Shown: positions 2,917 through 25,676 of the stretch, piece by piece | Position numbering within the stretch: the stretch's first letter is position 1 | Layout of the letters: each line of letters starts with the position of its first letter | Source: Acidobacteriota bacterium | Lineage (GTDB): Bacteria > Acidobacteriota > Vicinamibacteria > Vicinamibacterales > 2-12-FULL-66-21 | Direction of reading: 5' to 3' | NCBI GenBank assembly: GCA_003222675.1 | Contig: QHWT01000055.1 | Span: 164,287 to 228,286 of the forward strand | DNA length: 64,000 bases | Notes under the pieces: model-generated | Databases searched by the model: none | What the model was told of the DNA's origin: nothing | What the model saw: the letters and a program-made list of their open reading frames with translations, nothing else | Program-made: the position numbers and the translations under genes

Positions 2917-3088
2917 CTCGATCTCGCGTGGTCATCGCGATGGGCGGGGTGGTTTCGGCACGGGACGAGGCTGCGGCGGCTGGCCGCGGACGATGTGCAC
3001 CGGTTGACGTGGCGGCGAGGGGCGGCGACCCACGTCAGCGTCCGACGGCGTTCAGCCGTACGATCTCGTTAGGCATGTGGAGGACGAT

Positions 3089-7705: not shown

Positions 7706-9271
7706 ATGCGACTCCGATTGAACCTGCAGTGGACGGTCCTCCTGCTCGTGGCGAGCGGAATGACCTTGATTCTGGTGCTCTCCGACTACTTCCACGGGGT
7801 CATGACGCGTTCCATCATCGAGGACGCGCGGTACAACCGAGCGGTCGGTCAGACTGTCGGCATCGCCGAGCGCATCGTCACCTTGCAGCTGTTCATCAAC
7901 GACGACGCGTTGAGGCGCGACATTGGTCTGGTGGCGGCGCGCCGCGATTTCCGGCAGATCGATGTCTTTGAGTCGTCGCCTCACGGGTTACGCCTCGCGG
8001 CAAGCACGGCGCCGGACGCTGAGCGTCTGCCGGCTCTCGACGAGAACAGTCACGACAACGAGCTCGGAGAGATGGAGCACCCCCTCCCGGCGGTCGTGAC
8101 GATGGAGGTGATGCGCGGAGGCGTCCGGCACTGGCTGATTTCGGTCGCGCTCAAAGAGCGCCGCGGAACCGGCTACGTCGCGGCGCTGGTGGCCAAGAAT
8201 TCGGACCGTCAGTTTCTCAGCCGCCTGCAGCTTCAGCATAACCTCGTCGTGGGCGGCGCGATGGCGGTCTGCGTAGGGCTGTTGTGTCTTCTGTTCCTCT
8301 TCTTCTTTCGACGGCCGGCCCGCGACATCGTGCAAGCGATGGCGTTGGCACGCGGCGGCAATCTGGCATCGCGGGTGGAGGTCCGGCGGCGAGACGAGCT
8401 CGGCGCGATTGCGCGCGGATTCAACACGATGATGGACGACATCAGCGCGCGCGACCGCGAGCGCGAGGCGCTGATGACAACGATCAACGGCTTCAACCGC
8501 GACCTGCAGCGGGAGGTAGATGCAGCCACTGGCGAGTTGCGCTCCGCTAATGAGGCGCTGTTTCAATCGCAGCAGCGGCTCGGCCGGTCCGAGCGGCTGG
8601 CCGCCATGGGACAGGTCGCCGCATCGCTGGCGCACGAAATCGGGACGCCCCTGAATTCGATTTCCGGTCATATCCAGTTGCTCGCGCGCCGTCTGCGGCG
8701 GGACGCTGATGCGCAGCGGCGGCTCGACATCGTGAATCAGCAGATTGACTTCATCGTCCGAATCGTACGCGCGCTGCTTCAGCGAACGCACAAACGGTTG
8801 ACCGTGCTGCGGCCTACGGATCTGAATGCACTGGTGGACGAGGTGCTTCGCCTGGTCGGGCCGACGCTCGACGCGCACGCGATCGAAGTGTCTGCCGCGC
8901 TGCAGCCCGCTCTGCCGGCGGTGCTTGCGGATCGCGATGGCCTCCAACAGGTTTTTCTCAACCTGATCAACAACAGCATGGATGCCATGTCGCGCGGTGG
9001 TCGACTGGAGATTGCGACGCGTCTGAACCAGCACGCGCGCATCGCTGAAATCGATGTGCGCGATACAGGCCCGGGCATCCCGCCGGAAGCCGCTGAGCAG
9101 CTCTTCGAGCCGCTGTGCACGACGAAAGCGACCGGCAGCGGGTTCGGCCTGGCCATCGTACGCGAAATCGTGCACGCGCACGGCGGCACGATCGACGTCG
9201 GACAGGAACCTGGTGAAGGGGCGACGTTCCGCCTGCGGCTGCCGCTGGCTCAGGACGTGGCGATTGCATAA
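7706..9271 (+). CDS. Membrane sensor histidine kinase (NtrB/AtoS-like)
   Basis: A 521-residue protein with two membrane segments (about residues 9-27 and 178-200) enclosing a periplasmic sensor region of about 150 residues. A HAMP linker, a HisKA domain with the phospho-acceptor in LAHEIGTPLNS (about residue 310) and a HATPase_c domain with DTGPGIP and GSGFGLAIV follow. It is 18 bp upstream of, and surely co-transcribed with, a sigma54-dependent response regulator, so it is the likely cognate kinase. The periplasmic domain has no recognised fold, so the ligand is unknown. A candidate target promoter lies just downstream of the pair. Confidence 0.93.
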   Translation: MRLRLNLQWTVLLLVASGMTLILVLSDYFHGVMTRSIIEDARYNRAVGQTVGIAERIVTLQLFINDDALRRDIGLVAARRDFRQIDVFESSPHGLRLAASTAPDAERLPALDENSHDNELGEMEHPLPAVVTMEVMRGGVRHWLISVALKERRGTGYVAALVAKNSDRQFLSRLQLQHNLVVGGAMAVCVGLLCLLFLFFFRRPARDIVQAMALARGGNLASRVEVRRRDELGAIARGFNTMMDDISARDREREALMTTINGFNRDLQREVDAATGELRSANEALFQSQQRLGRSERLAAMGQVAASLAHEIGTPLNSISGHIQLLARRLRRDADAQRRLDIVNQQIDFIVRIVRALLQRTHKRLTVLRPTDLNALVDEVLRLVGPTLDAHAIEVSAALQPALPAVLADRDGLQQVFLNLINNSMDAMSRGGRLEIATRLNQHARIAEIDVRDTGPGIPPEAAEQLFEPLCTTKATGSGFGLAIVREIVHAHGGTIDVGQEPGEGATFRLRLPLAQDVAIA

Positions 9272-9289
9272 AAAGGCATAGGTGTACGC

Positions 9290-10681
9290 ATGTCCCGCGA
9301 GCGCCCGCGCATTACTGTCGTCGACGATGACTTGGTGACCTGCGAATTGCTCTGCGAGGTGTTCGCCCAGGAGGGCTTCGACACCGAGTACGCGCAGAGC
9401 GGGGAATCCGCGCTCGTGTCCATGGCCGCCAGCTGTCCCGACGTGCTCGTGAGTGACATCCGTATGAAAACGCGCCTGGACGGGCTCGCGCTCCTCGAAC
9501 GCGTGCGGCACCACTATCCGTCCACTCCCGTCGTGCTGATCACGGCGTTCGGATCGATCGAGACTGCCATTCGAGCGGTCAAAGACGGCGCGTTCGACTA
9601 TGTCAGCAAGCCGTTCGACATCGGCATCCTCGTATCGACCGTGCGGCGGGCACTGTCCATACAATCGTGTCCGGCTCCGGAGCTCGCGCAAGACGACGAG
9701 CCTGCGGCGCAACTCAGCGGAGAGTTGATCGGTCGAAGTCCCGCCATGCTGGACGTCTACAAGCTCGTTGCGCGCGTCGCTGACTCGCCGGCCGCCGTGC
9801 TCATTACCGGCGAGTCGGGATCGGGGAAAGAGCTCGTCGCGCGCGCGATCCACATGCACGGCACGCGCCACAGGCAGCCGTTTGTCGCCGTCAATTGCGG
9901 CGCGCTGCCAGAAACGCTCCTCGAGTCCGAGCTGTTTGGGCATGTCCGCGGGGCGTTCACCGGCGCCGTCGCGAACCGGCGGGGCCTCTTCGAGCAGGCG
10001 GCCGAAGGGACTGTCTTCCTTGACGAAGTCAGCGAGATGAGCCCCGCGCTTCAGGTGAAGCTGCTGCGTGTGCTACAGGAGCGCGAGGTCGTGCCAGTCG
10101 GCGGCAGCGTGCCGGTTCCCGTGCGGGCGCGGGTCATTGCGGCGAGCAACACCGATCTCGAACACCTGTCGCTCGGTGGAGGATTCAGGCGCGATCTGCT
10201 CTATCGATTGAACGTCATCAACATTCAGTTACCGCCGCTGCGCGCGCGCGTCGACGACATTCCGCTGCTCGTGCGTCACTTCCTGCGTAAATACGCTCAG
10301 GACTCGTCGCATCCGACGGCCGTGAGCGAGAGCGCCGCTCGCCTGCTCGCCGCGTACCCCTGGCCGGGGAACGTGCGGGAGCTCGAGAACATGATCGAAC
10401 GGGCGATCACGCTCAGTCCGGGACGCATCATCACCGACGACGATTTGCCGGCGCACATTCGGCAGACGCCCACGACTCAGCCGCCAGCTGACTTGGTGGT
10501 TCCCGATGCCTGCGACGCGGCGATGTTTTCAGGTCTTCCGACCATCGACGCGCTCGAGTGCCGCTACGTGCGCCACGTGCTTCAGGCCGCGAAGGGTAAC
10601 CGGAAGGCGGCCGCAAAAATCCTCGGCATCAACCGCAGAACGCTTTACCGAATGGCGGTTCGCTTCGGCCTTCAGATGTAA
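9290..10681 (+). CDS. Sigma54-dependent response regulator (NtrC family)
   Basis: A 463-residue activator. The receiver domain (residues 1-125) begins ITVVDDDLVTCELL and has the phospho-Asp in VLVSDIRM. The AAA+ domain has Walker A GESGSGKE (about residue 173), the sigma54-contacting loop GAFTGA (about 222-227) and Walker B-like GTVFLDEVSEM. The C-terminal Fis-type helix-turn-helix is in AKGNRKAAAKILGINRRTLYR. With an intact GAFTGA it should remodel sigma54 RNA polymerase. It follows its kinase gene and precedes a perfect -24/-12 promoter at 10807, making the downstream biosynthetic operon its most likely target (inference). Confidence 0.95.
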   Translation: MSRERPRITVVDDDLVTCELLCEVFAQEGFDTEYAQSGESALVSMAASCPDVLVSDIRMKTRLDGLALLERVRHHYPSTPVVLITAFGSIETAIRAVKDGAFDYVSKPFDIGILVSTVRRALSIQSCPAPELAQDDEPAAQLSGELIGRSPAMLDVYKLVARVADSPAAVLITGESGSGKELVARAIHMHGTRHRQPFVAVNCGALPETLLESELFGHVRGAFTGAVANRRGLFEQAAEGTVFLDEVSEMSPALQVKLLRVLQEREVVPVGGSVPVPVRARVIAASNTDLEHLSLGGGFRRDLLYRLNVINIQLPPLRARVDDIPLLVRHFLRKYAQDSSHPTAVSESAARLLAAYPWPGNVRELENMIERAITLSPGRIITDDDLPAHIRQTPTTQPPADLVVPDACDAAMFSGLPTIDALECRYVRHVLQAAKGNRKAAAKILGINRRTLYRMAVRFGLQM

Positions 10682-10683
10682 TC

Positions 10684-10736
10684 TGTGGGGCACATTGTCG
10701 CGCCGCAACGGCCTCGCGCGGACAAAATGCCACACG
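10684..10736. promoter_or_regulatory. Imperfect inverted repeat, candidate activator site or terminator
   Basis: The left arm 10684-10700 (TGTGGGGCACATTGTCG) pairs with the right arm 10720-10736 (GGACAAAATGCCACACG) with a few mismatches, and inner GCGC bases extend the pairing. It begins 3 bp after the regulator stop codon and ends about 70 bp before the -24 element. That distance suits an upstream activating sequence for an NtrC-family protein. It has no T-tract, so it is a poor intrinsic terminator, although that role is not excluded. Confidence 0.45.
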
Positions 10737-10806
10737 GCGCTCCGGCCTTGACGCTGCGAAACAGCACTTCATAAGTCCTGCTGCTGTCGACGACCGGTCT
10801 GTTCGA

Positions 10807-10822
10807 TGGCACCTGGATTGCT
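10807..10822 (+). promoter_or_regulatory. Sigma54 (-24/-12) promoter
   Basis: TGGCAC, five bases, then TTGCT. The GG at 10808-10809 and the GC at 10820-10821 are separated by exactly 10 bp, as sigma54 requires. Predicted transcription start is about 10833, giving a leader of about 45 bases before the GTG of the first operon gene. The preceding gene encodes a sigma54 activator, which strengthens the call. Confidence 0.75.
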
Positions 10823-10878
10823 CCAGCGCAGTCACAGTACCGGCACCCCATCACGGGCATACACGATTCTCGCAATCA

Positions 10879-11295
10879 GTGAAGTTCATCGACGAAATCC
10901 ACGTCGACGTGCCCGGCCGCTCCGCGCTGGCATCGTTGTTCGTCGACCCCGACGCGGATTATCTCGAGGATCACTTTCCGGGGGCGCCCATGCTGCCGGG
11001 ACTTGTCATGCTCGAAGCTGCCGTGCGTGCGGCTGCCGCCATATGGCTCACGCGTGAACAGTCGCCGGTCGCGGTGTCAATGCTCGATCGGCTGGAGCGC
11101 CTCCAAGTCGTGCGGCGCGTCGTGCCGGGTGAAACCGTGGTCGTCAACGCGGAAATCATAGAGCCAACGGAAAACCGCGACACCCAGATGTTCAAAGCCA
11201 CGGGCGATGTGACTGGGCAGATCGTCATGCGCGCGAGATTTCGGCTGCGATCGCTCGATGCGGAGCGTGCGGCATCGCGGTCGACGAGGAGGTGA
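10879..11295 (+). CDS. FabZ-like 3-hydroxyacyl-ACP dehydratase (hotdog fold)
   Basis: A 138-residue hotdog protein starting at GTG. It keeps the FabZ/FabA signature DHFPGAPMLPG with the catalytic His at about residue 32 and the Glu in VMLEAAV. The family dehydrates 3-hydroxyacyl-ACP to trans-2-enoyl-ACP in fatty acid or polyene chain building. It is the first gene after the sigma54 promoter and is followed by an ACP gene 4 bp after its stop, so the two should be co-translated. No strong ribosome site precedes the GTG. A second, degenerate hotdog protein is encoded at 17255, so this copy is probably the catalytic one. Confidence 0.85.
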   Translation: MKFIDEIHVDVPGRSALASLFVDPDADYLEDHFPGAPMLPGLVMLEAAVRAAAAIWLTREQSPVAVSMLDRLERLQVVRRVVPGETVVVNAEIIEPTENRDTQMFKATGDVTGQIVMRARFRLRSLDAERAASRSTRR

Positions 11296-11299
11296 CCAC

Positions 11300-11713
11300 G
11301 TGGTACTGACGCGAGACGAGATCGGCGAACGGGTGGCAGGCATTCTGGTTCAGGCGCTGGGCGTCAGCCGCAGCGAGATCACCACTGAAACATCCCTGGC
11401 GGGCGACCTCGAAGCGGAATCGATCGACTTTCTCGACATCGTCTTTCGGCTCGAGAAGGAGTTCGGGATCGAGGTGTCGCGGGGCGAGCTGTTCCCTCAG
11501 GAGCTGCTGCGGGACGCGGCGCTCGTGACGAATGGGCGTTTGACCGAGGCAGGCGCCGCAACGCTTCGCGAGCGCTTTGCGTTTGCGGACCTTCCTGAGT
11601 TGCGGCAAGGGGCCAGCGTCGATGAGCTGATGACCGATCTGCTGACGGTCAATCTCATCATCGATTACGTCGACAGCAAGCTGCGGCTTGCCGCGACCGT
11701 GCCGCAGGGATAG
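11300..11713 (+). CDS. Acyl carrier protein with C-terminal extension
   Basis: 137 residues from the GTG at 11300, which is preceded by a strong GAGGAGGTG ribosome site overlapping the dehydratase stop. The phosphopantetheine attachment Ser is in LEAESIDFLDI, followed by the usual acidic helix (LEKEFGIEVS). Normal ACPs are about 80 residues; here about 55 further residues continue past helix III, ending in LLTVNLIIDYVDSKLRL. The cluster carries its own AcpS at 12460 that could load it. The extension could be a docking segment for the KS pair or the reductase; that is inference. Confidence 0.88.
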   Translation: MVLTRDEIGERVAGILVQALGVSRSEITTETSLAGDLEAESIDFLDIVFRLEKEFGIEVSRGELFPQELLRDAALVTNGRLTEAGAATLRERFAFADLPELRQGASVDELMTDLLTVNLIIDYVDSKLRLAATVPQG

Positions 11714-11737
11714 CGTCTCCGGCGCTGGTTCGGATCA

Positions 11738-12448
11738 GTGGCCGCGATGAATACGGAAGAAGCCGCCCGACCCGGAGCGTCCTGCGATCGCCAGAGCCCT
11801 CAGCAACTGATCGATGCGGCGGCGCCGGTCTTTGCGGTTCTGGCCGGGCGCCGCAGCGTCAGGCAGTTCTCGCCGGAGATCCCGCCGAGAGAGCTGGTCC
11901 TGCGCGCGATCGAGGCGGCTACGCACGCCCCTTCGGGCATGAACAAGCAGCCGTGGCGATTTGTGGTGATCGCCAACGCGGGCGTCAAGACAGAAATGGT
12001 CGCGAGAGTGAGCCGTGAAATCGAAACCATTCTCGCGCTGCTCGCGGGCGACGAATACGCGGACCGGGTTGCGGACTACCTGCGTAACTACGCGACGCTG
12101 TTTCGCAGCGCGCCGGTGGTCATTGCGGTTCTGTACCGCGAGTACGGACAGGTGATCGCCAGCCTCCTCGAGCGGTCGAATCTCGCGTATGCCGACAACC
12201 AGGAGGAGGCCGCCAACCCGGCCATGCAGAGCGTGTCGGCGGCCATCCAGAACCTGCAGCTTGGGGCGCACGCCGTCGGTCTCGCCACGTGCTGGATGAC
12301 GGCGCCGCTCTTCGCGAGACGACAACTGCACGCGCTGCTCGACGTGGAAGAACCCTGGCAGCTCGCCCCGATCGGCTACGCCGCATCGGTCAACAACAAC
12401 GGACCTCGCCGCCTGCGCCTCGATCGGGTCGTGCGGTTCATCGAGTGA
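11738..12448 (+). CDS. Nitroreductase-family flavoenzyme
   Basis: About 236 residues (GTG at 11738; ATG at 11747 is an alternative). RRSVRQFSPEIPP and ATHAPSGMNKQPWRF are the classic FMN-binding N-terminal motifs of the nitroreductase fold, and NLQLGAHAVGLATCWM is the conserved C-terminal helix. The fold includes nitroreductases, flavin-dependent dehydrogenases such as the azoline oxidases of peptide pathways, and BluB. Inside a ketosynthase operon it could desaturate or reduce a carrier-bound chain. The exact reaction cannot be assigned. It lies 24 bp after the ACP gene. Confidence 0.85.
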   Translation: MAAMNTEEAARPGASCDRQSPQQLIDAAAPVFAVLAGRRSVRQFSPEIPPRELVLRAIEAATHAPSGMNKQPWRFVVIANAGVKTEMVARVSREIETILALLAGDEYADRVADYLRNYATLFRSAPVVIAVLYREYGQVIASLLERSNLAYADNQEEAANPAMQSVSAAIQNLQLGAHAVGLATCWMTAPLFARRQLHALLDVEEPWQLAPIGYAASVNNNGPRRLRLDRVVRFIE

Positions 12449-12459
12449 GACAGGATTCA

Positions 12460-12855
12460 ATGATCGTCGGTGCAGGAATAGACGTCGCACCCATCAGCCG
12501 CGTCTCGCGGCTGGTGCGCGATCACGCGGCCACGCTGGAGCAGGTATTCACCGAGCAGGAGCGAGCCTTCTGCGAAAACGGTACGAGCCGGCATCGGGAG
12601 GCGCGATACGCGGGGATATTTGCTGCCAAAGAGGCCGTCATGAAGGCGCTCGGCACCGGGTGGCGATCCGACGTTCAGTTCGCGCACATCGAGACTCGAG
12701 ATGTCGCCGCGCCCGGCGAAGCCGTGCTGCGAGGCCCCATTCGCAAGGTCGCGCACGACCTGGGGGTCGCTCGCATCCTCCTCAGCATCGCCGCGACGGC
12801 CGATGCCGCCATGGCAGCCGCGGTTGCGACGCGCGGCGACAATGACGCGCGGTAA
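12460..12855 (+). CDS. acpS: Holo-[acyl-carrier-protein] synthase
   Basis: 131 residues from the ATG at 12460, close to the usual AcpS length. The magnesium/CoA motif GIDVAPISRV at the N-terminus and FAAKEAVMKALGTG in the middle are diagnostic. It transfers 4'-phosphopantetheine from CoA to the active-site Ser of an ACP. Its place two genes after the ACP suggests a dedicated loader for this pathway, in addition to whatever copy serves primary metabolism. Its end overlaps the start of the next gene by 14 bp. Confidence 0.92.
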   Translation: MIVGAGIDVAPISRVSRLVRDHAATLEQVFTEQERAFCENGTSRHREARYAGIFAAKEAVMKALGTGWRSDVQFAHIETRDVAAPGEAVLRGPIRKVAHDLGVARILLSIAATADAAMAAAVATRGDNDAR

Positions 12856-13531
12856 GGCGGCCGCGATGGCGCTCACGGTAACGGTTCTCGCGGGGCGGCA
12901 TGCCGAGCCTGCCACCTGGAACGACGTGGTGGAGAGTTACGAGCACGTGCGCGATTACACCGCGGCTTACGAGAAGGAAGAGCGCGCCATCTCCAATGGT
13001 GATCGGCAGACAATCCGTCTGTGGTTTCGAAAGCCCCTGGACGTGCGGCTCGAATGGCTGAACGACAAGGGCCAGATCGATCAAACGGCGGTGTACCGCG
13101 CGGGACACAACGACGGCAAGGTCATGGCGCGGCGCAGCGGGCTGCTTGGCGGCCTCGCGGGCACCGTCGCGCTCGATCCCCACGATCGGCTCGCCCTTCA
13201 GGATTCGCGGCATCCGATTACCGAGGTCGGGCTCGGCCACATCATCGAGCGCGTTTCAGACGGGATTCGGCGCGGGCAGCTCACAGCGGCTCCCGTTCGT
13301 GAGCTCCTTCTCGACGCCAGACCCGCGAATCGGTTTGAGTTCGAAGCCTTGTCAGGCCGCGGCGTGCTCGGGATGGAAGACGCGCGTCGCGCGGTCGTCT
13401 GGATCGATCGCGAGCTGAAGCTTCCGATCAAAGTGGAAGTACTCGGGGCGAACGACACCCTCCTCGAGCGGCATCGCTTCAAGAATCTTCGCGTCAACGT
13501 CGGTCTCACGGACAAGACGTTTGCGCTCTGA
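12842..13531 (+). CDS. DUF1571-type exported protein (LolA/LppX-like)
   Basis: 229 residues from the ATG at 12842, with an N-terminal signal peptide (GKAAAMALTVTVLAGRHA). The body has alternating strands with DYTAAYEKEERAISNGDRQ, RKPLDVRLEWL and GHNDGKVMAR, which match the DUF1571 pattern. I infer a LolA-like lipid-binding half-barrel. LolA-like proteins in aryl-polyene and flexirubin clusters help deliver the lipid product to the outer membrane, so a periplasmic chaperone role is plausible here. The start overlaps acpS. Family assignment is from remembered motif pattern, not a search. Confidence 0.75.
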   Translation: MTRGKAAAMALTVTVLAGRHAEPATWNDVVESYEHVRDYTAAYEKEERAISNGDRQTIRLWFRKPLDVRLEWLNDKGQIDQTAVYRAGHNDGKVMARRSGLLGGLAGTVALDPHDRLALQDSRHPITEVGLGHIIERVSDGIRRGQLTAAPVRELLLDARPANRFEFEALSGRGVLGMEDARRAVVWIDRELKLPIKVEVLGANDTLLERHRFKNLRVNVGLTDKTFAL

Positions 13532-13542
13532 AGGCGAACAGA

Positions 13543-14868
13543 ATGATGTCGAGGCGCATTGTCGTGACGGGCATGGGGGTTGTGACGCCGATCGGCAACT
13601 GCGTTGCTGAGTTCTGGCAGGCGCTCCTCGATGGTCGCTCGGGCGTGGGTCCGGTGCGAGCGTTTGCCGTCGATGGGTTTTGTCCGACGTACGCGTCGGA
13701 GGTGAAAGATCTCGAGACGGACCGCGCGGGGCTGCCGCGAAGGAAGCTGAAGGTGATGGGCCGCCACGCGCAATTGGCGTTCTGCGCCGCGCAGGAAGCC
13801 TGGTCGGACGCCGGTCTGGCAGCGCATCCGCCCGTGGAGGATCGCTCGCGTATTGGCGTCCTCCTCGGTATCGGCATGCTCAACGCGGACGTCGTGGAGC
13901 TCGGCCGCGCGTTCTATGCGACAGCGCATGCGCGGAGTACAAGCGCCGGCCTGTCCGATGCGTCCGGCGATTCATTCGATACAGTCGCCTTTGGCCGGTG
14001 GGGCGCGAGCGAAATGCTGCCTCTCTGGCTGCTGCGGCATATACCGAACCTCGCGGCCGCCCACATTTCCATCGCCCTCGACGCGCAGGGCCCGTCGAAC
14101 ACGATTACTACCGGCTGCGTGTCGGGCGCGAACGCGCTCGGCGAAGCGGCGCGGCTGGTTGCCAGGGGGGCCGCAGACATCATCCTCGCGGGAGGCGCGG
14201 ACGCGCGCGTCAGCCCTCTCGCGATGCTGAGATATCGCGATCTTGGATGGCTGGCGACGCGCGATGACATTGATCCTGCGGCAGTGAGTGCGCCGTTCGA
14301 CGCCGCCGCCGCCGGTTTCGTCACTGGAGAAGGCGCCGGCGTCATGGTCCTCGAAGCACTCGATCATGCACGCGCGCGGGGAGCGCGTGTGTACGCAGAG
14401 CTGGCCGGCTACGGTGCCGCGAACGACGCGCATGATGTTCTGGAGCCGGATCCTGAAGGCCGCGGACTTGCCCGCGCGGTTTCCGTGTGCCTCGAGCGAA
14501 GCGGTCTGCAGCCGCCGAATATCGACGCGCTGTTTTCACCCGCCACGGCCGTCCCTGCGTTCGACCGCGCCGCCGCGTCCGCGCTGACGAGGACGTTCGG
14601 TTCCTTGCGGGCGCGTCCCGCAACAACCGCGACGCGTTCCATCGTCGGGCATACGCATGCCGCATCCGCAGCGCTCGACTGCGTGGCGGCCGTCAAGTCG
14701 ATTGGCGAGTCGAAGCTTCCAGCGACGCTGAATCTTCACCACGCGATCGCCGATCTGCCGCTAGTGACCGGCACACCGTACGCCGGCGACATCTCGACGG
14801 CGCTAGTCTCGGCGTACGGATTCGGCGGACATGCTGCAGCACTCGCGTGGCAAAGGTGTTGCGCATGA
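13543..14868 (+). CDS. Beta-ketoacyl synthase-like protein, degenerate active site (KS-beta candidate)
   Basis: 441 residues with the full FabF/KAS-II fold. The nucleophile Cys192 is kept in ITTGCVSGAN. The first catalytic His of the AHGT motif is replaced: the aligned segment is ALFSPATAV, with Pro333 at the His position. The Lys five residues before the second His is Arg365, while that His is kept (His370 in IVGHTHAAS). The next gene is an intact ketosynthase overlapping by 4 bp. The pair therefore resembles the KS-alpha/chain-length-factor heterodimer of type II systems, except that classic chain-length factors lose the Cys instead. Function as a partner subunit is inference. Confidence 0.88.
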   Translation: MMSRRIVVTGMGVVTPIGNCVAEFWQALLDGRSGVGPVRAFAVDGFCPTYASEVKDLETDRAGLPRRKLKVMGRHAQLAFCAAQEAWSDAGLAAHPPVEDRSRIGVLLGIGMLNADVVELGRAFYATAHARSTSAGLSDASGDSFDTVAFGRWGASEMLPLWLLRHIPNLAAAHISIALDAQGPSNTITTGCVSGANALGEAARLVARGAADIILAGGADARVSPLAMLRYRDLGWLATRDDIDPAAVSAPFDAAAAGFVTGEGAGVMVLEALDHARARGARVYAELAGYGAANDAHDVLEPDPEGRGLARAVSVCLERSGLQPPNIDALFSPATAVPAFDRAAASALTRTFGSLRARPATTATRSIVGHTHAASAALDCVAAVKSIGESKLPATLNLHHAIADLPLVTGTPYAGDISTALVSAYGFGGHAAALAWQRCCA

Positions 14869-16160
14869 ACCGGCACGTGGTCATCACCGGAGTCGGCGTC
14901 GTCTCGCCGGTGGGCATCGGCATCGAGGAGTACTGGCGCGGTCTCACAGGCGGACGCTCGGGAGTCGGACGTATCAGCCGCTATGACGCGTCCGCTTTTC
15001 CCGTGCAGATCGCCGCGGAAGTCCGTGGGTTCATGCTGGCCGACTACACAGATGCTCCCGGGACGTTCGTCGCGAGCGATGGCCGTTCGGTCCCGCTCGA
15101 TCTGCGCACGCAGTACGCCCTTGCGGCGGCGGACATGAGCGTGCGCGACGCGGGAATCGAGGAGTGCGGCGTGTGGAGTGACGCGCATCTCTATTTCGGC
15201 GCGGGGGAAGGGGGCAACGACCTCGCGATGCTCTCGCGCATCGTCACTCCGGCTTCGTCGCGCGTCGACGGATGCGACGTCGCGTCGCTGCTGGCGCGCG
15301 CCGACGCGAGACTGTTCTCGGTGCAGGATCAGTTGATCGAGCCGACGGTTCCCGCGTCGCTCATCGCGCGGCGGTACGGGATCGGCGGCGAAGTGACGAC
15401 GTGCCTGACCGCGTGCGCGGCGAGCGCACAGGCGATCGGCGAGGCGATGCGCCGCATTCAGGAAGGAGACTGCGATCTTGCGCTCGCCGGCGGCGCGCAT
15501 GCGATGACGACGCCGCTCGACGTTCTGGGGTTCGCCATGCTCTCCGCGCTCTCGTGTCGGAACGACGCACCGGCGCGCGCGTCGCGACCCTTCGATCGGC
15601 ATCGCGATGGGTTCGTGCTCGGCGAAGGCGCCGGCGTGCTGGTCCTCGAGGAGTCCGAACGGGCGAGACGGCGAGGCGCGCGCATCTATGGCGAGCTCGC
15701 CGGGTACGGCACGGCCAACGACGCCTACCGTGTGACCGATATGCATCCGGACGCGCGGGGGGCGGCGCGCGCGATAACGAGCGCGCTTGCCGATGCCGGA
15801 ATTGACGCCGAGGAGATTGGCTACATCAATGCGCACGGGACGTCGACCGTTGAGAACGATCGCGCCGAGACGCTCGCGCTCCATCACGTGCTCGGCGACG
15901 CCGCGCGGGAGATTCCAGTCAGCTCCACGAAATCCATGACGGGGCACGCTGTGGCGGCGGCGGGTGCCCTCGAGCTGATTGCCGTGCTCCTCGCGCTTCG
16001 GGAACAGGTGATGCCGCCGACTATCAATCTCGAGACCCCGGATCCCGAATGCGATCTCGATTACGTGCCGAATCGCGCCCGCGCGCACGAGTTCACGACG
16101 GCGCTATCGAACTCGTTCGGGTTCGGCGGACAGAACGTCGCGTTGGTGGTTCGCCAATGA
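14865..16160 (+). CDS. Beta-ketoacyl-ACP synthase, intact catalytic triad (KS-alpha candidate)
   Basis: 431 residues from the ATG at 14865, which overlaps the previous stop as ATGA. Cys184 (CLTACAAS), His324 (INAHGTST), Lys356 and His361 (STKSMTGHAVAA) complete the condensing-enzyme active site. It should catalyse decarboxylative Claisen condensation of malonyl-ACP with the growing acyl-ACP. Translational coupling to the degenerate KS upstream supports a heterodimer. The cluster has no malonyl transferase, so malonyl units probably come through the housekeeping FabD. The next gene starts within its stop codon. Confidence 0.93.
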   Translation: MNRHVVITGVGVVSPVGIGIEEYWRGLTGGRSGVGRISRYDASAFPVQIAAEVRGFMLADYTDAPGTFVASDGRSVPLDLRTQYALAAADMSVRDAGIEECGVWSDAHLYFGAGEGGNDLAMLSRIVTPASSRVDGCDVASLLARADARLFSVQDQLIEPTVPASLIARRYGIGGEVTTCLTACAASAQAIGEAMRRIQEGDCDLALAGGAHAMTTPLDVLGFAMLSALSCRNDAPARASRPFDRHRDGFVLGEGAGVLVLEESERARRRGARIYGELAGYGTANDAYRVTDMHPDARGAARAITSALADAGIDAEEIGYINAHGTSTVENDRAETLALHHVLGDAAREIPVSSTKSMTGHAVAAAGALELIAVLLALREQVMPPTINLETPDPECDLDYVPNRARAHEFTTALSNSFGFGGQNVALVVRQ

Positions 16161-17242
16161 CGGCGCTGCGCATCCTGCTGACCGGGACCGGCACCATCGG
16201 GCGCGAGCTGCTGGTGCCGCTGCTGCGCGCCTCGTCGAACCGTGTCGCGGTGCTGATGCGCGATCGACGGCGGCGGTCGGCGCAACAGCGCGCTGACGCG
16301 CTCTTTCGGGAGCTCGACTTGACCGCATCCGAACGAGCACGCGTGGAAGTCCTTCAGGGCGACGTGACGTGCGCCGGCCTCGGGCTCGACGCCGCGGCGC
16401 AGGTCCGGATCATCGAAGACGTCGATCTCATCATTCATACGGCAGCGGCAACCGCGCTGACCGCGGATCGGGCGCTCTGCGATGCCGTCAATCGCGCCGG
16501 CACCGCGAACGTGCTCGGCCTGGCGGAGCGCTGCTATACGAGGGGACGGCTGAAGCGGCTGGTGCATTTGAGCACGGCACTGGTTGCGGGCGGCGGGTCT
16601 GCCACCCTCGCGTGCGAGGATGAACTGCCGGCCACTCCCGCTCACGCGAACCACTACGAATGGAGCAAGTACGAAGCGGAACGGATCGTTCGCGCCGCAA
16701 TGCACGCAGGACTGCCGGTCACGGTGTTCCGCCCGAGCATGGTGGTCGGCGAGACCGAAACGGGCCGCACCCGCGATTTCAACGTGATCTATCCGCTGAT
16801 GCGAATCATGGCGAGCGGCTACGTCACCAGGTTCCCCGCCGATCCGCGGGCCAGGATCCACCTGGCGCCGCTCGATTTCGTCGTCGGCGCGATTATGCGT
16901 TCTCTGGATGCGGCATGGACGGTCGGCTTGACGTTCCACTTGACCGCGCCGGATCCTCCGACCGTCGCGCAGTTGTTCGATTGTGACGCGTTCTTTCCGT
17001 CCGGTGTATCGCGGCCGCAGCTCTACCCGCCAGCGGAGTTCGATCCATCCGCGTGCACGCCGCGCGAGCGCGATCTGCTCGAGTCGGTGTCGTTCTGTTT
17101 TCCCTACTTCAATTCCCGTCTGTCGTTCGAGACGCGCAACGCCGGTCGGCTCGTCCCGCTGCCGGTGACGGACTCCGCGTACCTGACCCGACTCGGACGC
17201 TACGCCGTCGAAAGCGGCTACCTGCAGCGAACGGCCGGGTGA
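16157..17242 (+). CDS. Extended SDR, thioester-reductase / acyl-reductase-like
   Basis: 361 residues from the ATG at 16157. The Rossmann motif is GTGTIGRELL near the N-terminus and the catalytic YxxxK is within HYEWSKYEAE (about residues 167-171). VTVFRPSMVVGETETG is typical of the NAD_binding_4 (male-sterility/thioester reductase) branch. Relatives reduce carrier- or CoA-bound acyl thioesters to aldehydes or alcohols. In this operon it could release the chain reductively. No FabG-like ketoreductase is encoded in the cluster, so ketoreduction is the competing idea. It overlaps the ketosynthase stop by 4 bp. Confidence 0.8.
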   Translation: MTALRILLTGTGTIGRELLVPLLRASSNRVAVLMRDRRRRSAQQRADALFRELDLTASERARVEVLQGDVTCAGLGLDAAAQVRIIEDVDLIIHTAAATALTADRALCDAVNRAGTANVLGLAERCYTRGRLKRLVHLSTALVAGGGSATLACEDELPATPAHANHYEWSKYEAERIVRAAMHAGLPVTVFRPSMVVGETETGRTRDFNVIYPLMRIMASGYVTRFPADPRARIHLAPLDFVVGAIMRSLDAAWTVGLTFHLTAPDPPTVAQLFDCDAFFPSGVSRPQLYPPAEFDPSACTPRERDLLESVSFCFPYFNSRLSFETRNAGRLVPLPVTDSAYLTRLGRYAVESGYLQRTAG

Positions 17243-17254
17243 AGGCATCCGCGC

Positions 17255-17731
17255 ATGCGCTACGTACTGATCGACCGGATCACGAGCATCGACCCAGGAC
17301 GCACGATCGCTGCGCTGAAGAACGTCGCAGCGGGCGATGGGTTGGTGACGCAGTACTCCTCAGACCTGTGGGCGCTGCCGCCCGCGATGCTGCTCGAGAC
17401 GATGGCGCAGGCGGCCGGTCTGCTCGTGGCGTCAACGATTCACTTTCGGGCCCAGCCCGTGCTCGCAAAGGTGCAGCCGTTCGCTGCCGACCGCCTGGCC
17501 GTTCCCGGCGATCAGGTGCTGCTGCACGCCGAGCTCTGCGAACTGCGTGATGCCGGTTGCCGGACGCACGCGACCGCGCGGGTCGGCCTGACGTTGCTGG
17601 CGGAAGCCACCATTTTTCTCGCGCTCGTTCCGCTCGACGAAAGAGGGCGGCGCGAGCAGCTTCGCGCGCACATGGCGCGACTCTTTCCAGGCTGGTTCGG
17701 CGAGCCGGCGGCGGCCGAGGTCCTACCGTGA
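17255..17731 (+). CDS. Second FabZ-like hotdog protein lacking the catalytic His
   Basis: 158 residues with the hotdog pattern: RITSIDPGRTIAALKNV, then LPPAMLLETMAQAAG where FabZ has its Glu helix, then LAKVQPFAADRLAVPGD. The HFPG segment that carries the FabZ catalytic His is replaced by YSSDLWALPP, while the helix Glu remains. It is either a non-catalytic partner of the dehydratase at 10879, or a hotdog enzyme of another kind such as an isomerase or thioesterase. It follows the SDR by 12 bp and overlaps the radical SAM gene by 4 bp. Confidence 0.75.
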   Translation: MRYVLIDRITSIDPGRTIAALKNVAAGDGLVTQYSSDLWALPPAMLLETMAQAAGLLVASTIHFRAQPVLAKVQPFAADRLAVPGDQVLLHAELCELRDAGCRTHATARVGLTLLAEATIFLALVPLDERGRREQLRAHMARLFPGWFGEPAAAEVLP

Positions 17732-18747
17732 AGGCGTCGTTAATCGTGAAAAACGCTCTCCGTCAAGTACGGCACGGGTTCAGCAGGCCGTTCATGGTCA
17801 TGTTCGAGACGACGCTGCACTGCAATATGAAGTGCGGATACTGCGCGATCTGGCAGAACCAGCAGCCCGAAACACGTGCGGTGCGCGAGCGTGTGTTTCG
17901 GCGCATGGACGAAGCGGCTGACTTCGGCGTGTTCGCCTGGAGTTTCTCCGGCGGCGAGCCGCTGATGAATCCGAATGTACCGGACTACATCGAGTACGCA
18001 GCGCGGAAGGGATTCTTCACGTCGATGCCGACCAACGGGCTGGCGCTGAAGAAATACGCGGCCGCGTGCGCAAAGCTCGATCAGCTCGAGGTGTCGATCG
18101 ACACGCTCGATCGTGAGAAGTTCGCACGGCGGCGGGGCATCGATGGACTCCCGACGATCCTGGCCGCGCTGGATTACCTCCTTGGCCGCTACGAGCATCA
18201 CACGATTCAGATCAACGCCGCGGTGGATCTCGACAACCTGGACGATCTGCCCGCGCTCGCGAGTTTCTGCACCGAGAGAGGCCTCCTGCTTCACACCGAA
18301 GCAGTGCACAACGTGGTGCGTACCACCTGGCGGACGGAGGACGTCGAGCTCGCACGCGCGGACCTGGATCGGGTGGCCGCCGGCTTGGCGGCGCTGCGCG
18401 AGACGTTCAGATGCGTGCGTTTCTACAGCGACTACTACAACTTTTATCGCAATGACGGCTTCACGAAACAGTTCCCGTGTCGTTCTGCATCCCATCTCGT
18501 CAACATGCGGCCCGATGGTTCGATCCAGTTTCCGTGCGCGTTCGTCCACGTGCACCGCGGTGCGCCGGACATGACGCTGCGCGAGATCTATGAGTCTCCG
18601 GATGTCCGGCGGATTATCAGCGAATCGCCGGCGATGTGGGACTTCTGCAAGGGCTGCAAGATTGGCTGTCCCTACGAAGTGTCAGCCTATCGCAACAGCC
18701 CGCTCCTCGCGGTTCGCTCGGCCATCGACTTCCTGCACCTTCACTGA
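17728..18747 (+). CDS. Radical SAM enzyme
   Basis: 339 residues from the GTG at 17728. The [4Fe-4S]/SAM motif CNMKCGYC places cysteines at 32, 36 and 39, and SFSGGEPLMNP is the conserved GGE segment. The C-terminus has further cysteines at 307, 310 and 314 (CKGCKIGC), so a second cluster site of SPASM/twitch type is possible. Overall look and length are near HpnH-like and SPASM-containing enzymes. Intergenic gaps here are too small for a peptide precursor gene, so a lipid or sugar substrate is more likely than a RiPP. The reaction is unknown. Confidence 0.85.
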   Translation: MKASLIVKNALRQVRHGFSRPFMVMFETTLHCNMKCGYCAIWQNQQPETRAVRERVFRRMDEAADFGVFAWSFSGGEPLMNPNVPDYIEYAARKGFFTSMPTNGLALKKYAAACAKLDQLEVSIDTLDREKFARRRGIDGLPTILAALDYLLGRYEHHTIQINAAVDLDNLDDLPALASFCTERGLLLHTEAVHNVVRTTWRTEDVELARADLDRVAAGLAALRETFRCVRFYSDYYNFYRNDGFTKQFPCRSASHLVNMRPDGSIQFPCAFVHVHRGAPDMTLREIYESPDVRRIISESPAMWDFCKGCKIGCPYEVSAYRNSPLLAVRSAIDFLHLH

Positions 18748-18762
18748 CATGAGGATCTCCGT

Positions 18763-19728
18763 TTGATTGTTCCCGCCGATCCGCTGCTCGCCGTTGACTC
18801 GCCCGCCGTGACGCGGCGGAGCGTGGTCCGTGGGTACGAGGTGGCCGTCAGCGCTCGACGATTGGTCAAGCGATACAAGGATGGAACCGAGGCGAACCGC
18901 GGCATCAATATCGATCTGCGCCGTGGCGAGGTAATCGCGATCCTCGGTCCGAACGGAGCGGGCAAGACGACCTTTCTCCGGCAGGTGACGACGGAGCTCC
19001 GCCCCTCGTCCGGCCGCATCACCGTCTTCGGCGTCGACACCGTGCGTGATCCCGAGCGCGCCAGGCAGATGATGGGCATCGCGCCGCAGGAAGCCGGACT
19101 GTTCGAGTCGCTGCGGGTTCGCGATCATCTGGAGCTGTTCGCGCGCCTGAAGGGGCTTTCCCGGCGCGCCGCCGCCGCCGCAGCAGCGAAGACGATGGAG
19201 GATCTCGACCTGGTCGCTGACGCGAACCGGCGCGTGCGCACGCTGTCCGCGGGACAGCGCCGCCGAATCCTCCTTGGACTCGCGCTGGTGGGTCATCCGC
19301 CGCTGCTGGTCCTCGATGAGCCGACCACCGGACTTGATCCGGCTGCGCGCCGTGCGATGTGGAATATCCTCCGCCGCGCCGTTGGCAACGGTGCAAGCGT
19401 TATCCTGTCGACGCATTACATGGAGGAGGCTGAGCGCCTCAGCGACCGAATCGGCATCATCAGCACAGGGCGGTTGATCGCATTCGGCACGCTGGCGGAG
19501 CTCACTGCCTGTCTGGATTGTCGTTATCGACTGACGTTTCACGATTCGTCCGATCCGTCGGCGGACCTGTGCGTCGAGCGCTACGCGACATTTGGTGAGC
19601 TGCAGGCAGAGATCGCACGACGGCGCCTCTCCGAATACTCCATCGCCGGGGCCACGCTGGAGGATGTCTACCTCGAGCTCGTTGGCGAGCGTTTTCCCGA
19701 CGAAGCCGCGCAAGGGGAACGCCGATGA
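18763..19728 (+). CDS. ABC transporter ATP-binding protein
   Basis: 321 residues from a TTG at 18763, with a GAGG ribosome site nearby; the exact start is uncertain and the first 25 residues are unlike the family. Walker A is GPNGAGKTTF, the signature is LSAGQRRRI and Walker B is LLVLDEPTTGLDP, followed by the switch His in STHYMEEAERLSDR. It is of the DrrA/ABC-2 exporter type. It pairs with the ABC-2 permease gene that overlaps its stop, and would power export of the cluster product across the inner membrane. Confidence 0.92.
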   Translation: MIVPADPLLAVDSPAVTRRSVVRGYEVAVSARRLVKRYKDGTEANRGINIDLRRGEVIAILGPNGAGKTTFLRQVTTELRPSSGRITVFGVDTVRDPERARQMMGIAPQEAGLFESLRVRDHLELFARLKGLSRRAAAAAAAKTMEDLDLVADANRRVRTLSAGQRRRILLGLALVGHPPLLVLDEPTTGLDPAARRAMWNILRRAVGNGASVILSTHYMEEAERLSDRIGIISTGRLIAFGTLAELTACLDCRYRLTFHDSSDPSADLCVERYATFGELQAEIARRRLSEYSIAGATLEDVYLELVGERFPDEAAQGERR

Positions 19729-20486
19729 CGCGCAGGGTGAGCGACATCTGGTGTGTCTTCCAAATTCATCTCGAGCGCGTGCGGGCCGAAGCGGGCCCCT
19801 TCATCCTCGCCGCGCTGGTGTTTCCAGCCGCGATGTATCTCTTTGCGACCGCGGTCGGGAGTGAGGCCAGCGCCGGTGTCGACGACACGGAGCGTCGGCT
19901 TCGATTCCTGGCTGGCTCGATCGTCTTTTCATTGTCGCTCACCGCCATCAGCTGGCTTGGTTATCTGTTGCTCGAAAACCGGTTCACGGGACGGCTGCGA
20001 CTGTTCGCGACGCTGCCGCTCGCCGCCTCCTCATATGCGTTCGGCATCCTGCTGTTCGGTCTGGCGCAGGCAGCGCTCGGGACCTCGTCGCTGCTTCTGG
20101 TGTCGCGCTTCTTCGGTGTTCGTACGGCGCTGACGCTGCCAGCCGCGTTCCTGCTCGTCGTGTTGATCGTGCTGATGATGCTGTGCGGCTGCGGCATTGC
20201 GCTCGTGATCGCGTCGCACGCCCGCAGCTTCAGCGAAGGATCGCTTCTGACCGACGCGCTGGGCGCAGGGTTCGTCCTGGTCGCGCCGATTTACTACGCG
20301 CCTGAGTCGCTGCCGCGCGCGCTTCAATATCTCTCGCGCCTCCTGCCCACGACGTATGCGGCGCGCGCCGTCCAGGCGACGCTCACCGGAAGGCATGACG
20401 TGACCGACGACCTGCTGGTGCTGGCGTTCATGGCCCTCGTCACGCTGACTGTCGGCTTTCGCTCCATGCGCTGGCGCGAGGACTGA
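19725..20486 (+). CDS. ABC-2 type permease
   Basis: 253 residues with about six membrane segments, including LAGSIVFSLSLTAISWLGYLL, AFLLVVLIVLMMLCGCGIAL and LLVLAFMALVTLTVG. It starts at ATG overlapping the ATPase stop (ATGA). ALQYLSRLLPTTYAARAVQATL near the end is the usual ABC-2 permease tail. Together with the ATPase it forms a two-gene exporter, probably a homodimer of each. The position between biosynthetic and glycosylation genes suggests it exports a lipid-linked or hydrophobic product. Confidence 0.88.
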   Translation: MTRRVSDIWCVFQIHLERVRAEAGPFILAALVFPAAMYLFATAVGSEASAGVDDTERRLRFLAGSIVFSLSLTAISWLGYLLLENRFTGRLRLFATLPLAASSYAFGILLFGLAQAALGTSSLLLVSRFFGVRTALTLPAAFLLVVLIVLMMLCGCGIALVIASHARSFSEGSLLTDALGAGFVLVAPIYYAPESLPRALQYLSRLLPTTYAARAVQATLTGRHDVTDDLLVLAFMALVTLTVGFRSMRWRED

Positions 20487-20492
20487 GGAGGT

Positions 20493-22802
20493 ATGAAGAC
20501 AAGGCCTTCGCCGCGCGTGATGGTGCTGACGCTGTCGTTCGGCTCGGGCCACGTTCGCGCGGCGCATGCAGTCGCCGATGCCATCAGGGCGCAGGATCCG
20601 GGCGCGGACGTTCGCTGTGTGGATGCACTCAACGGCTGCCGTTTGGCGTTTCGCGCAATATACGTATGGCCGTACTGGGCGATGGTCGGTCACGCTCGCT
20701 GGCTATGGGCGCGGCTGTTTTCGGCCAGGCTGACGCGCGTTCATCGGCAGACGGCTCCCGCCTGGGTCTTTCGCGCGGGCTGCCCGCGGGTGTTCCGTGA
20801 AGTCGCCCGATTCCGGCCCGACTTCATCATCGCTGTCGAAGTTGCCGCGTGCGAGATGGCAACGATCGCAAGGCGGCGCCGTTTGACGGACGCCGCGCTC
20901 ATCAACGTGATCACGGATCACCAGGCGGAGCCCGCGTGGGTGACTCCCGAGGTCGATCGCTATCTCGTCAGCGATTCGAGGGTGCGCGAGCAACTGTGCT
21001 CCTGGAATGCGCTTCCCGAGCGGATCGTCATTTGCGGCATTCCCGTGAGTGAAATCTTCAGCACACGGTTCGATCCCGACGAGACGCGAGCGCGTTATGG
21101 CGTTTCAGGCAGCCGTCCTCTCGTGCTCCTGATGGGCGGCGGCATGGGCCCCACACGGATGGACCAGGTGGCCGAGCGTCTATGCGATGGTGATGTGCCG
21201 ATGCACGTGGTGGCCGTCACAGGACACGACCGCCAGGCGCGTCGCCGCCTCTCGCGTATCCGCGTGCGCGGCAATACGTCGCTAACGGTGCGGGGCTGGA
21301 CCGACGACGTGCCGGCGCTGATGCAGGCAGCAACGGTCCTGGTCACCAAGCCGGGCGGCGTCACCATCGCGGAAGCGGTGGTGTGCGGCACGCCGCTGCT
21401 CCTGTTCGATCCCATCCCGGGGCCCGAAGAACGCAACGCCGCGTTCGTCGTGGAGTCCGGTGCTGGGGTCCTCGCGCCCGGTGCCGAGATGGCAGCCGCC
21501 GTGAAAGCCATGCTGCGCGATCCGGACCGCCGCCGCGCGATGACAGCGGCCGCGCGCCGGCTGGCGCGTCCCGAGGCCGCACGATCGATTGCTCGCATGG
21601 CGCTCGACGCCTGCGAGCAGCGGCCGGGTGCAGGCCCTGTCCTGATTTTCACGATAGGCAACGGCGCGGGCCACACGAGCGTCGCCTCCGCAATCGCCGA
21701 GGCCCTGCACGACGCAGATCGGCGGTCCGCTGTGGTCGTGGACGTCGCTGACTATATGAGTCGCCTGGCGCGCCTGACGCACGTGACTGCGTACTTATGG
21801 CTCGTCAAGCACTGGCCCGCGCTCTGGGACCGCATCGATCGCTATCAGAAACGGCAGCCGCACACGAGCCCGGAGTGGTACTACCGCCGCACATGCCGGC
21901 GCCTGCGGGATCTCGTAGGACAGCTCGATCCCCCGGCGCTGGTCGCTACGGAAGTCGGATGCTGCGAGATCGCTGCCCTGATCAAACGGGACCTGAGGCT
22001 TCGCGTCCCGCTCGTTGCGGTTAACGGCGAGTACGACGTCGATCGCGCGTGGCTACAGCCGGAAGTCGACTTGTTCTGCGTGACGACCGAGGAAATCCGC
22101 GATCGATTGTCGGCGCTGGGGGGGTCGCGCCGTCAGATTCGAGCCTGGGGCGTTCCGCTTGCAGCGTGCTTTCATGTGTTCGACGATCGCGAGCGGCTCC
22201 GCGAGGCTGTGTGCGGCTGGTTGAATCTCGAGACAGAGAAGCCGCTCCTTCTCGTCGCGGGCGGAAGCGAAGGCCTTGGCCGCGTGGAAGCGGCGGCCGC
22301 GCGACTGCTGCGGCTCGAGCACTCGCGCCCGCAAGTCGTCGTGCTGGCAGGGCGCAACGAACGATTGAGGCAGCGCTGCGAACGGCTTGCCACGCGATAC
22401 CCGAATAGACTGCGTGTGCTCGGATGGACGTCGCGCATGCCGGAACTGATGCGCGCCGCCGACCTGATTGTCTCGAAGCTGGGACACACGTTCGACGAGG
22501 CGATCGCGAGCGGCCTGCCGCTCATCGCCCTCGAACCGCCGCCTGGCGCAGAGCGCGTGCAATACCGGATGCTCGACCAATGGGGTGTCGGACGCGCCGT
22601 CCGCAGTCTCGACGAGATGGCACGCGTCGTTGGTGCGCTTCTCACTGACCGCGTCGAGCTCGATGCCATGCGCGCGGCCGCGGCGGCTCGTTCCAGCCCG
22701 CGCGCGGCGCACCGCATCAGCGACTGGATCGACACGGCGACCCTTGACATGCGCGGCGACGCGACGGGCCACGCGATCTATGCGGAGGAGCCTGCGCTGT
22801 GA
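20493..22802 (+). CDS. Tandem (duplicated) MGDG-synthase/MurG-like glycosyltransferase
   Basis: 769 residues built from two homologous GT28-type halves. The N half opens MVLTLSFGSGHVRAAHAVADA and ends with KPGGVTIAEAVVCGTPLL. The C half opens PVLIFTIGNGAGHTSVASAIAEAL (about residue 383) and ends with SKLGHTFDEAIASGLPLIAL. Both keep the GxGH lipid-acceptor loop and the nucleotide-sugar helix. Single-unit relatives (MGD1, UgtP) add sugars to diacylglycerol. Two complete domains in one chain suggest two sequential transfers or one silent domain. A GAGGAGG ribosome site precedes the ATG. The gene follows the ABC permease by 6 bp. Confidence 0.85.
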   Translation: MKTRPSPRVMVLTLSFGSGHVRAAHAVADAIRAQDPGADVRCVDALNGCRLAFRAIYVWPYWAMVGHARWLWARLFSARLTRVHRQTAPAWVFRAGCPRVFREVARFRPDFIIAVEVAACEMATIARRRRLTDAALINVITDHQAEPAWVTPEVDRYLVSDSRVREQLCSWNALPERIVICGIPVSEIFSTRFDPDETRARYGVSGSRPLVLLMGGGMGPTRMDQVAERLCDGDVPMHVVAVTGHDRQARRRLSRIRVRGNTSLTVRGWTDDVPALMQAATVLVTKPGGVTIAEAVVCGTPLLLFDPIPGPEERNAAFVVESGAGVLAPGAEMAAAVKAMLRDPDRRRAMTAAARRLARPEAARSIARMALDACEQRPGAGPVLIFTIGNGAGHTSVASAIAEALHDADRRSAVVVDVADYMSRLARLTHVTAYLWLVKHWPALWDRIDRYQKRQPHTSPEWYYRRTCRRLRDLVGQLDPPALVATEVGCCEIAALIKRDLRLRVPLVAVNGEYDVDRAWLQPEVDLFCVTTEEIRDRLSALGGSRRQIRAWGVPLAACFHVFDDRERLREAVCGWLNLETEKPLLLVAGGSEGLGRVEAAAARLLRLEHSRPQVVVLAGRNERLRQRCERLATRYPNRLRVLGWTSRMPELMRAADLIVSKLGHTFDEAIASGLPLIALEPPPGAERVQYRMLDQWGVGRAVRSLDEMARVVGALLTDRVELDAMRAAAAARSSPRAAHRISDWIDTATLDMRGDATGHAIYAEEPAL

Positions 22803-23530
22803 CGGCCGCTCTGCAGATCCTCATCGGCGGTGCGGCCCTGTGTGGAGGCGCCGCCACCGGCGCCGTTTATTACGCGACGTACGCCGTGCGCACGCAGTGG
22901 CTCGGTCCGGCGGTATGGCGCGGCCGCGGTGACGTTTCTTCCGTCGCTCTGACGTTCGACGATGGTCCGAGCCCCGACACCGAACGGATCCTGGACATCC
23001 TGGAGCAATGTGGCGTTGGCGCGACGTTCTTCATGGTCGGCCGCCACGTCGAGCGCCATCCAGAAACGGCGAGACGAGTGGTCGCATGCGGCCACGATAT
23101 CGGAAATCACTCGTACTCACATCCCATTTACCTGTATCGCCGCGCTCGTGAGACGTATCGGCAGCTTGCGCGCACACAGGACGTTATCAGCGACGTCACA
23201 GGCGTGCGGCCGACGTGGTCACGCCCTCCGTGCGGCGTTCGCACTCGCGCCTATTTCGACGCGGCGCGAGCGCTGGGTCTGTGCACCGTGCAGTGGACCG
23301 TGTCGGGGCTCGACTGGAAGCGAAGAAGCCCGCAATCGATTGCTGGCCGAGTGATTGAACATGCCGCTCCTGGTTCGATCGTCCTGCTCCACGACGGCGA
23401 CAGCGCCGGCAAACGGGATCGCTCCAGGACGGTCGCGGCTCTTCCTCTCATCGTAGACGGGCTCACGCGGCGCGGACTCCATGTCTCGTCGCTGACGCAA
23501 TTGATTCACACTCCGGCGTCTGAAGCATGA
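22799..23530 (+). CDS. Polysaccharide deacetylase (NodB/CE4 family)
   Basis: 243 residues from a GTG that overlaps the preceding stop (GTGA). The CE4 metal motifs are complete: TFDDGPSPDTERILDIL, the HSYSHP motif and RPPCGVRT, with HDGD near the end. An N-terminal hydrophobic segment (LQILIGGAALCGGAATGAVYYAT) would anchor it in the membrane facing the periplasm. The family removes N-acetyl groups from GlcNAc units in glycans or glycolipids. Next to a GT28 glycosyltransferase it probably converts a transferred GlcNAc to glucosamine; that pairing is inference. Confidence 0.88.
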   Translation: MTAALQILIGGAALCGGAATGAVYYATYAVRTQWLGPAVWRGRGDVSSVALTFDDGPSPDTERILDILEQCGVGATFFMVGRHVERHPETARRVVACGHDIGNHSYSHPIYLYRRARETYRQLARTQDVISDVTGVRPTWSRPPCGVRTRAYFDAARALGLCTVQWTVSGLDWKRRSPQSIAGRVIEHAAPGSIVLLHDGDSAGKRDRSRTVAALPLIVDGLTRRGLHVSSLTQLIHTPASEA

Positions 23531-23543
23531 AGGGAGCAATCGC

Positions 23544-25669: not shown

Positions 25670-25676
25670 TCAAGAC

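Follow-up and report, generated by a model that had tools for sequence, protein, structure and literature searches.

The window (the whole 64-kb stretch of DNA analysed) contains a sensor histidine kinase gene that ends 18 bp before the gene for an NtrC-type response regulator, followed by an intergenic region with a sigma54-type promoter and then by a putative operon of 17 genes (10879–27011; 16.1 kb; Table 1). The gaps between the operon genes are of 24 bp or less, and many of the genes overlap; for this count the start codons of three genes were adjusted by reading the sequence. The regulator combines the features of the NtrC family, i.e. a receiver domain, an AAA+ domain with a GAFTGA motif and a Fis-type HTH. 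GAFTGA (residues 221–226) is intact and Walker A runs from residue 174, so that its description in a first-pass annotation of this DNA as an adjacent NtrC-type regulator with intact GAFTGA is borne out. The only rpoN gene of the 7.16 Mb genome codes for a 477-aa protein whose RpoN box (ARRTIAKYRE) is intact. Of 44 matches to sigma54 activators, about 36 were convincing. Beyond the operon lie a stretch coding for a carboxypeptidase-regulatory plus large outer-membrane beta-barrel protein (PF25183; 30010–33417) and a gene for an 818 aa MacB/FtsX-type permease (38251–40704).

Table 1. Features of the locus, with their positions in the window.
Feature	Position	Strand	Basis or remark
Sensor histidine kinase, presumed signal input	7706–9271	+	Pfam HAMP, HisKA, HATPase_c; N-terminal membrane segment by eye
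NtrC-type response regulator / bacterial enhancer-binding protein	9290–10681	+	Pfam receiver, AAA+, Fis-type HTH
Possible inverted copy of upstream site, AATGTGCCCCAC	10685–10696	-	2 mismatches to site
Degenerate direct copy of upstream site, CAACGGCCTCGC	10706–10717	+	By eye; weak match, 8/12
Main upstream activator site (putative), AAAATGCCACAC	10724–10735	+	Conserved as AAAAAGCC(A/C)CAC in nine genomes
sigma54 -24/-12 promoter, TGGCACCTGGATTGCT	10807–10822	+	Motif read; GG-N10-GC counterpart in eight other genomes
Predicted transcription start	10833	+	About 12 nt past the -12 GC
FabA/ApeI-like hotdog dehydratase, first gene, optional module	10879–11295	+	Pfam; GTG start
Acyl carrier protein, optional module	11300–11713	+	PF00550
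Nitroreductase-family flavoprotein, optional module	11738–12448	+	PF00881
Holo-ACP-synthase-like phosphopantetheinyl transferase	12460–12855	+	PF01648
DUF1571 protein, presumed exported, core	12842–13531	+	PF07608
Ketosynthase 1, optional module	13543–14868	+	Pfam; residues read from translation
Ketosynthase 2, optional module	14865–16160	+	Pfam, translation; complete Cys-His-His by eye
Thioester-reductase-like NAD_binding_4 protein, optional module	16157–17242	+	Pfam; NCBIfam match below cut-off
Second hotdog-like protein, optional module	17255–17731	+	G097 orthologue; similarity to L032 hotdog genes
Radical SAM protein, core	17728–18747	+	PF04055; 78–82% identical in relatives
DrrA-like ABC ATPase, core	18763–19728	+	Domain match
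ABC-2 permease, core	19725–20486	+	Domain match
Two fused MGDG-synthase-like glycosyltransferases, core	20493–22802	+	Domain match
Polysaccharide-deacetylase-family protein, core	22799–23530	+	Domain match
HAD-family phosphatase, core	23544–24263	+	Domain match
Class III PLP aminotransferase, core	24251–25669	+	About 80% identical in relatives
AMP-ligase, PaaK/DVU_1553-like, core, last gene of unit	25677–27011	+	Below curated cut-offs

The inspection of related operons separated the genes into a core and an optional module. The controlled unit is the core, which comprises the genes for the DUF1571 protein, the radical SAM protein, the ABC exporter, the glycosyltransferase, the deacetylase, the HAD protein, the aminotransferase and the AMP-ligase. 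The ketosynthase genes belong to the optional module: of four operons read at length, two have them. The DUF1571 gene is the first core gene past the promoter in genomes G392 and G086. The glycosyltransferase occurs as two fused units in the window, as one unit in G392 and as separate genes in G086 and G097. The dehydratase has an orthologue that is likewise first in the operon of G097, and none at loci L169 and L170; the second hotdog-like protein gave no Pfam match. By eye, ketosynthase 1 differs from ketosynthase 2: its active-site Cys is kept, but the first His motif is missing. Since both ketosynthases keep this Cys (by eye), neither corresponds to the Cys-less chain-length factor by which type II polyketide or aryl-polyene systems are recognised, and no ketoreductase was recognised among the 17 operon genes. 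The first-pass annotation had spoken of a secondary-metabolite-like operon. This label fits only in part, because what is conserved as the target is a core of envelope/export type, with the ketosynthase genes as an optional extra. A hotdog-ACP-hotdog-ketosynthase-ketosynthase gene set, in that order and 26–44% identical, was seen on a Sedimentisphaerales contig (L032), and may be related to the optional module.

The proposed promoter, TGGCAC-N5-TTGCT with an exact GG-N10-GC spacing, had been placed at 10807–10822, 126 bp past the end of the regulator gene and 57 bp ahead of the first operon gene. Rereading gave the same sequence (TGGCACCTGGATTGCT), coordinates and distances (regulator stop, 10681; GTG start, 10879). 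A zero-mismatch scan found TGGCACN5TTGC once in the whole 64-kb window, namely at this position. With up to two mismatches allowed, 49 matches were found versus 60 expected by chance; looser matches are thus not above chance, and the motif by itself is suggestive rather than decisive. In the 150 nt past the upstream site described below, a perfect match appeared in 0.15% of dinucleotide shuffles.

Sites for activators of this type are usually palindromes. A palindrome of the form GNCAN3TGNC was considered for the window, where arms near 10690–10731 fitted by eye, but it was not common to the relatives and was discarded in favour of a tandem AAAAAGCCMCAC. This candidate activator site, a non-palindromic direct repeat, was absent from the first-pass annotation and was found here by comparison. 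In the window, a single copy is good; it lies 83 bp ahead of the -24 element, and a degenerate second copy stands 18 bp before it, a spacing that fits the 17–20 bp of the relatives. The non-palindromic form and the single good copy both count against the proposed switch. The possible inverted copy has an orientation not seen in relatives and may be a chance match. The inverted repeat around 10685–10738 could alternatively form an RNA hairpin that ends the regulator transcript, rather than a protein site. A long stem can indeed form on this strand (-30.8 kcal/mol), but its stability is not above that of shuffled sequences (z -0.47), a T-run is absent, the relatives have direct and not inverted repeats, and in genome G097 the site is retained at a locus remote from the regulator gene; this explanation is hardly credible.

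The protein-binding reading of the upstream site draws on a comparison of nine genomes, the window and eight of one other order. Each has a AAAAAGCC(A/C)CAC-like site followed, 82–110 bp on, by a GG-N10-GC sigma54 site (distances from the start of the last site copy to the start of -24; in G606 the GG-N10-GC at flank position 228, tied at three mismatches, was taken). Two or three clear site copies are present in seven of the nine genomes, and one in the window and in G097; operon genes directly follow the promoter in eight. The best promoter matches in the 150 nt past the last site copy had 0, 1, 2, 2, 3, 0, 1, 3 and 1 mismatches, summing to 13, versus 31.0 ± 2.0 (minimum 23) in 2000 shuffled sets, a contrast that overstates independence since the genomes compared share ancestry. 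The matches in G606 and G632 (three mismatches each) are weak and not significant alone.

In G392 and G086, the kinase, the regulator, an intergenic region with three site copies and a GG-N10-GC promoter, and the core operon are all in place, while the dehydratase, ACP, ketosynthase and reductase genes are missing (the core was seen from DUF1571 to AMP-ligase in G392; the G086 stretch ends within the aminotransferase gene). Genomes G624, G606, G565, G631 and G632 have two or three site copies plus the promoter, directly followed by the radical SAM gene in all but G565; there (L198), a search over about 1.5 kb showed none of the operon genes. Regulator orthologues (62–69% identical) were found in 10 genomes of this other order; in G622 and G625 the regulator is unlinked. 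At L166, L169 and L170 the gene ahead of the NtrC orthologue codes for a kinase orthologue with about 55% identity. Where no operon lies behind the regulator orthologue (L129, L201 and L202), neither the site nor a sigma54 promoter was found.

In genome G097, from a different family of the same phylum, the operon genes keep their order and are 46–80% identical, and no match to the phosphopantetheinyl transferase of the window was found there. Its operon lies next to an OmpR-type regulator pair, and its NtrC orthologue (62%) and kinase (55%) are on another contig. Upstream of its first operon gene stand TGGCGCGACGTTTGCT and GGACAAAAAGCCACAC; the latter matches GGACAAAATGCCACAC of the window at 15 of 16 positions, and the upstream sites of both genomes have GGACAAAA(T/A)GCCACAC in common. 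The site was not found at the unlinked NtrC orthologue. The G097 operon keeps site and promoter away from the regulator gene, so the site travels with the operon promoter and not with the regulator gene.

These comparisons bear on whether the 16-bp match arose by chance in GC-rich DNA, with transcription of the operon coming instead from a sigma70-type promoter or running on from the regulator gene. Loose matches are indeed common in the window. Nevertheless, nine genomes retain the position, spacing and sequence, control flanks lack them, and a simple scan of 9000–12000 found no sigma70-type promoter; a chance match therefore appears very improbable. The sigma54 promoter proposed by the first-pass annotation thus gains support from its conservation in nine genomes and from its absence at regulator genes that are separate from the operon.

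Some loci that resembled the operon were set aside. Six from a contig scan showed ketosynthase similarity, mostly without the remaining operon genes. Those of G265 and G053 (L177 and L178) have an aminotransferase gene (67–69%) and a HAD gene near a ketosynthase gene but no upstream site, and are possibly a related operon under other control. No copy of the upstream site was found in the more distant class relatives of the regulator (about 48–56% identical), despite a similar recognition helix. Behind one more distant regulator (G446; L091, around 2959–3081), a palindrome, GGGGCAAAGTGCCCC, and a sigma54-like TGGCAGCGAAGTTGCG are followed by a presumed secreted-protein gene, an arrangement that may be a further linked switch acting through a site of its own.

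Across four whole genomes, 17 exact copies of AAAANGCCMCAC were counted, and a same-strand sigma54 match in the 150 bp downstream was confined to those at the operon; this search covered exact sites, and degenerate ones would escape it. The promoter and the repeat enhancer might be real and yet be served by a different enhancer-binding protein, with the neighbouring pair regulating something else. The presence of about 36 enhancer-binding proteins in the genome makes cross-activation possible, and the orthologue in G097 is unlinked to the operon. Against this, an orthologue stands directly ahead of the site, promoter and operon genes in seven genomes (the window, G392, G086, G624, G606, G631 and G632). 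Further, in a 396-genome sample of the phylum a close relative of the regulator was present in four genomes (the window, G392, G086 and G097), all four of which have the operon. A different activator is thus improbable, and the earlier proposal that the adjacent gene codes for the likely activator is favoured by the nine-genome conservation, which includes the tandem upstream site.

In a phylogenetic tree, the regulator of the window is nested in the clade formed by the other order, with weak support for its placement within that clade, while a paralogue from the same genome (contig C109) groups with its own class. Among 12 genomes of its family, only this one gave a close match to the first operon gene, the others giving generic hotdog matches. 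This suggests that the regulator was acquired laterally, transfer being the simplest reading of the tree and the family distribution.

Taken together, a functional sigma54 promoter is proposed to drive the operon at 10879–27011 from near 10833, activated from the upstream site by the NtrC-type regulator once phosphorylated by the adjacent kinase; from the sequence comparisons, a probability of about 0.87 is assigned to this reading. The phosphorylated regulator would oligomerise on the main site, probably together with the degenerate copy, and DNA looping would bring it to the sigma54 polymerase. ATP hydrolysis by the regulator would then open the promoter, all 17 genes would be carried on one transcript, and the operon would be nearly silent without the signal. 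Since the arrangement recurs in eight other genomes, a sigma54 switch of this 17-gene biosynthesis-and-export operon is very probably real. As to the product, a speculative and rather doubtful proposal is a glycosylated (amino)lipid of an undescribed kind that is exported, with the acyl-chain module being optional, made under a dedicated sigma54 two-component switch that moves with the operon between distant lineages and whose activator acts on non-palindromic tandem repeats.

Comparable switches have been described before; the new elements are the particular regulator, site and operon. In Myxococcus xanthus, the enhancer-binding protein Nla28 and sigma54 control natural-product genes through tandem upstream repeats (PMC7910581). 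The promoter described here resembles those of Nla28 in its sigma54 elements, its upstream half sites, whose tandem repetition is clear in seven relatives and degenerate in the window, and the biosynthetic genes behind it, and its site-to-promoter spacing agrees with the 80–150 bp described for tandem repeats of enhancer-binding proteins (PMC7910581). However, Nla28 promoters are mostly intragenic, Nla28 is a global developmental regulator and its repeat is CTSCGSAG (PMC7910581), whereas here the promoter lies between genes, the regulator gene is its neighbour, with only this operon as a target in the strict-motif search, and the repeat is AAAAAGCCMCAC. In Desulfovibrio vulgaris, motifs were inferred by the same comparative method for enhancer-binding proteins with linked target operons, again from a conserved regulator motif and a sigma54 promoter ahead of the target genes; the organism group, the motif and the target operon differ (PMC4641369). 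As far as the accessible part of the report goes, the RpoN-dependent PEP-CTERM gene involved in floc formation is similar in placing an envelope or extracellular function under sigma54 and differs in gene content (PMC9850573), no PEP-CTERM or exosortase gene having been recognised in the present operon. Like NtrC of the NtrBC system, the regulator has the receiver-AAA+-Fis HTH order, GAFTGA and a kinase next door; unlike it, the target is not nitrogen assimilation and the site is a non-palindromic tandem repeat.

The ketosynthase genes that draw attention to this locus are an add-on to the regulated core. For lineages in which no published sigma54 regulon was found, the analysis names an activator together with its probable binding site, the promoter and the operon that it would control, and with these in hand the switch can be forced on to reveal the product of the operon.
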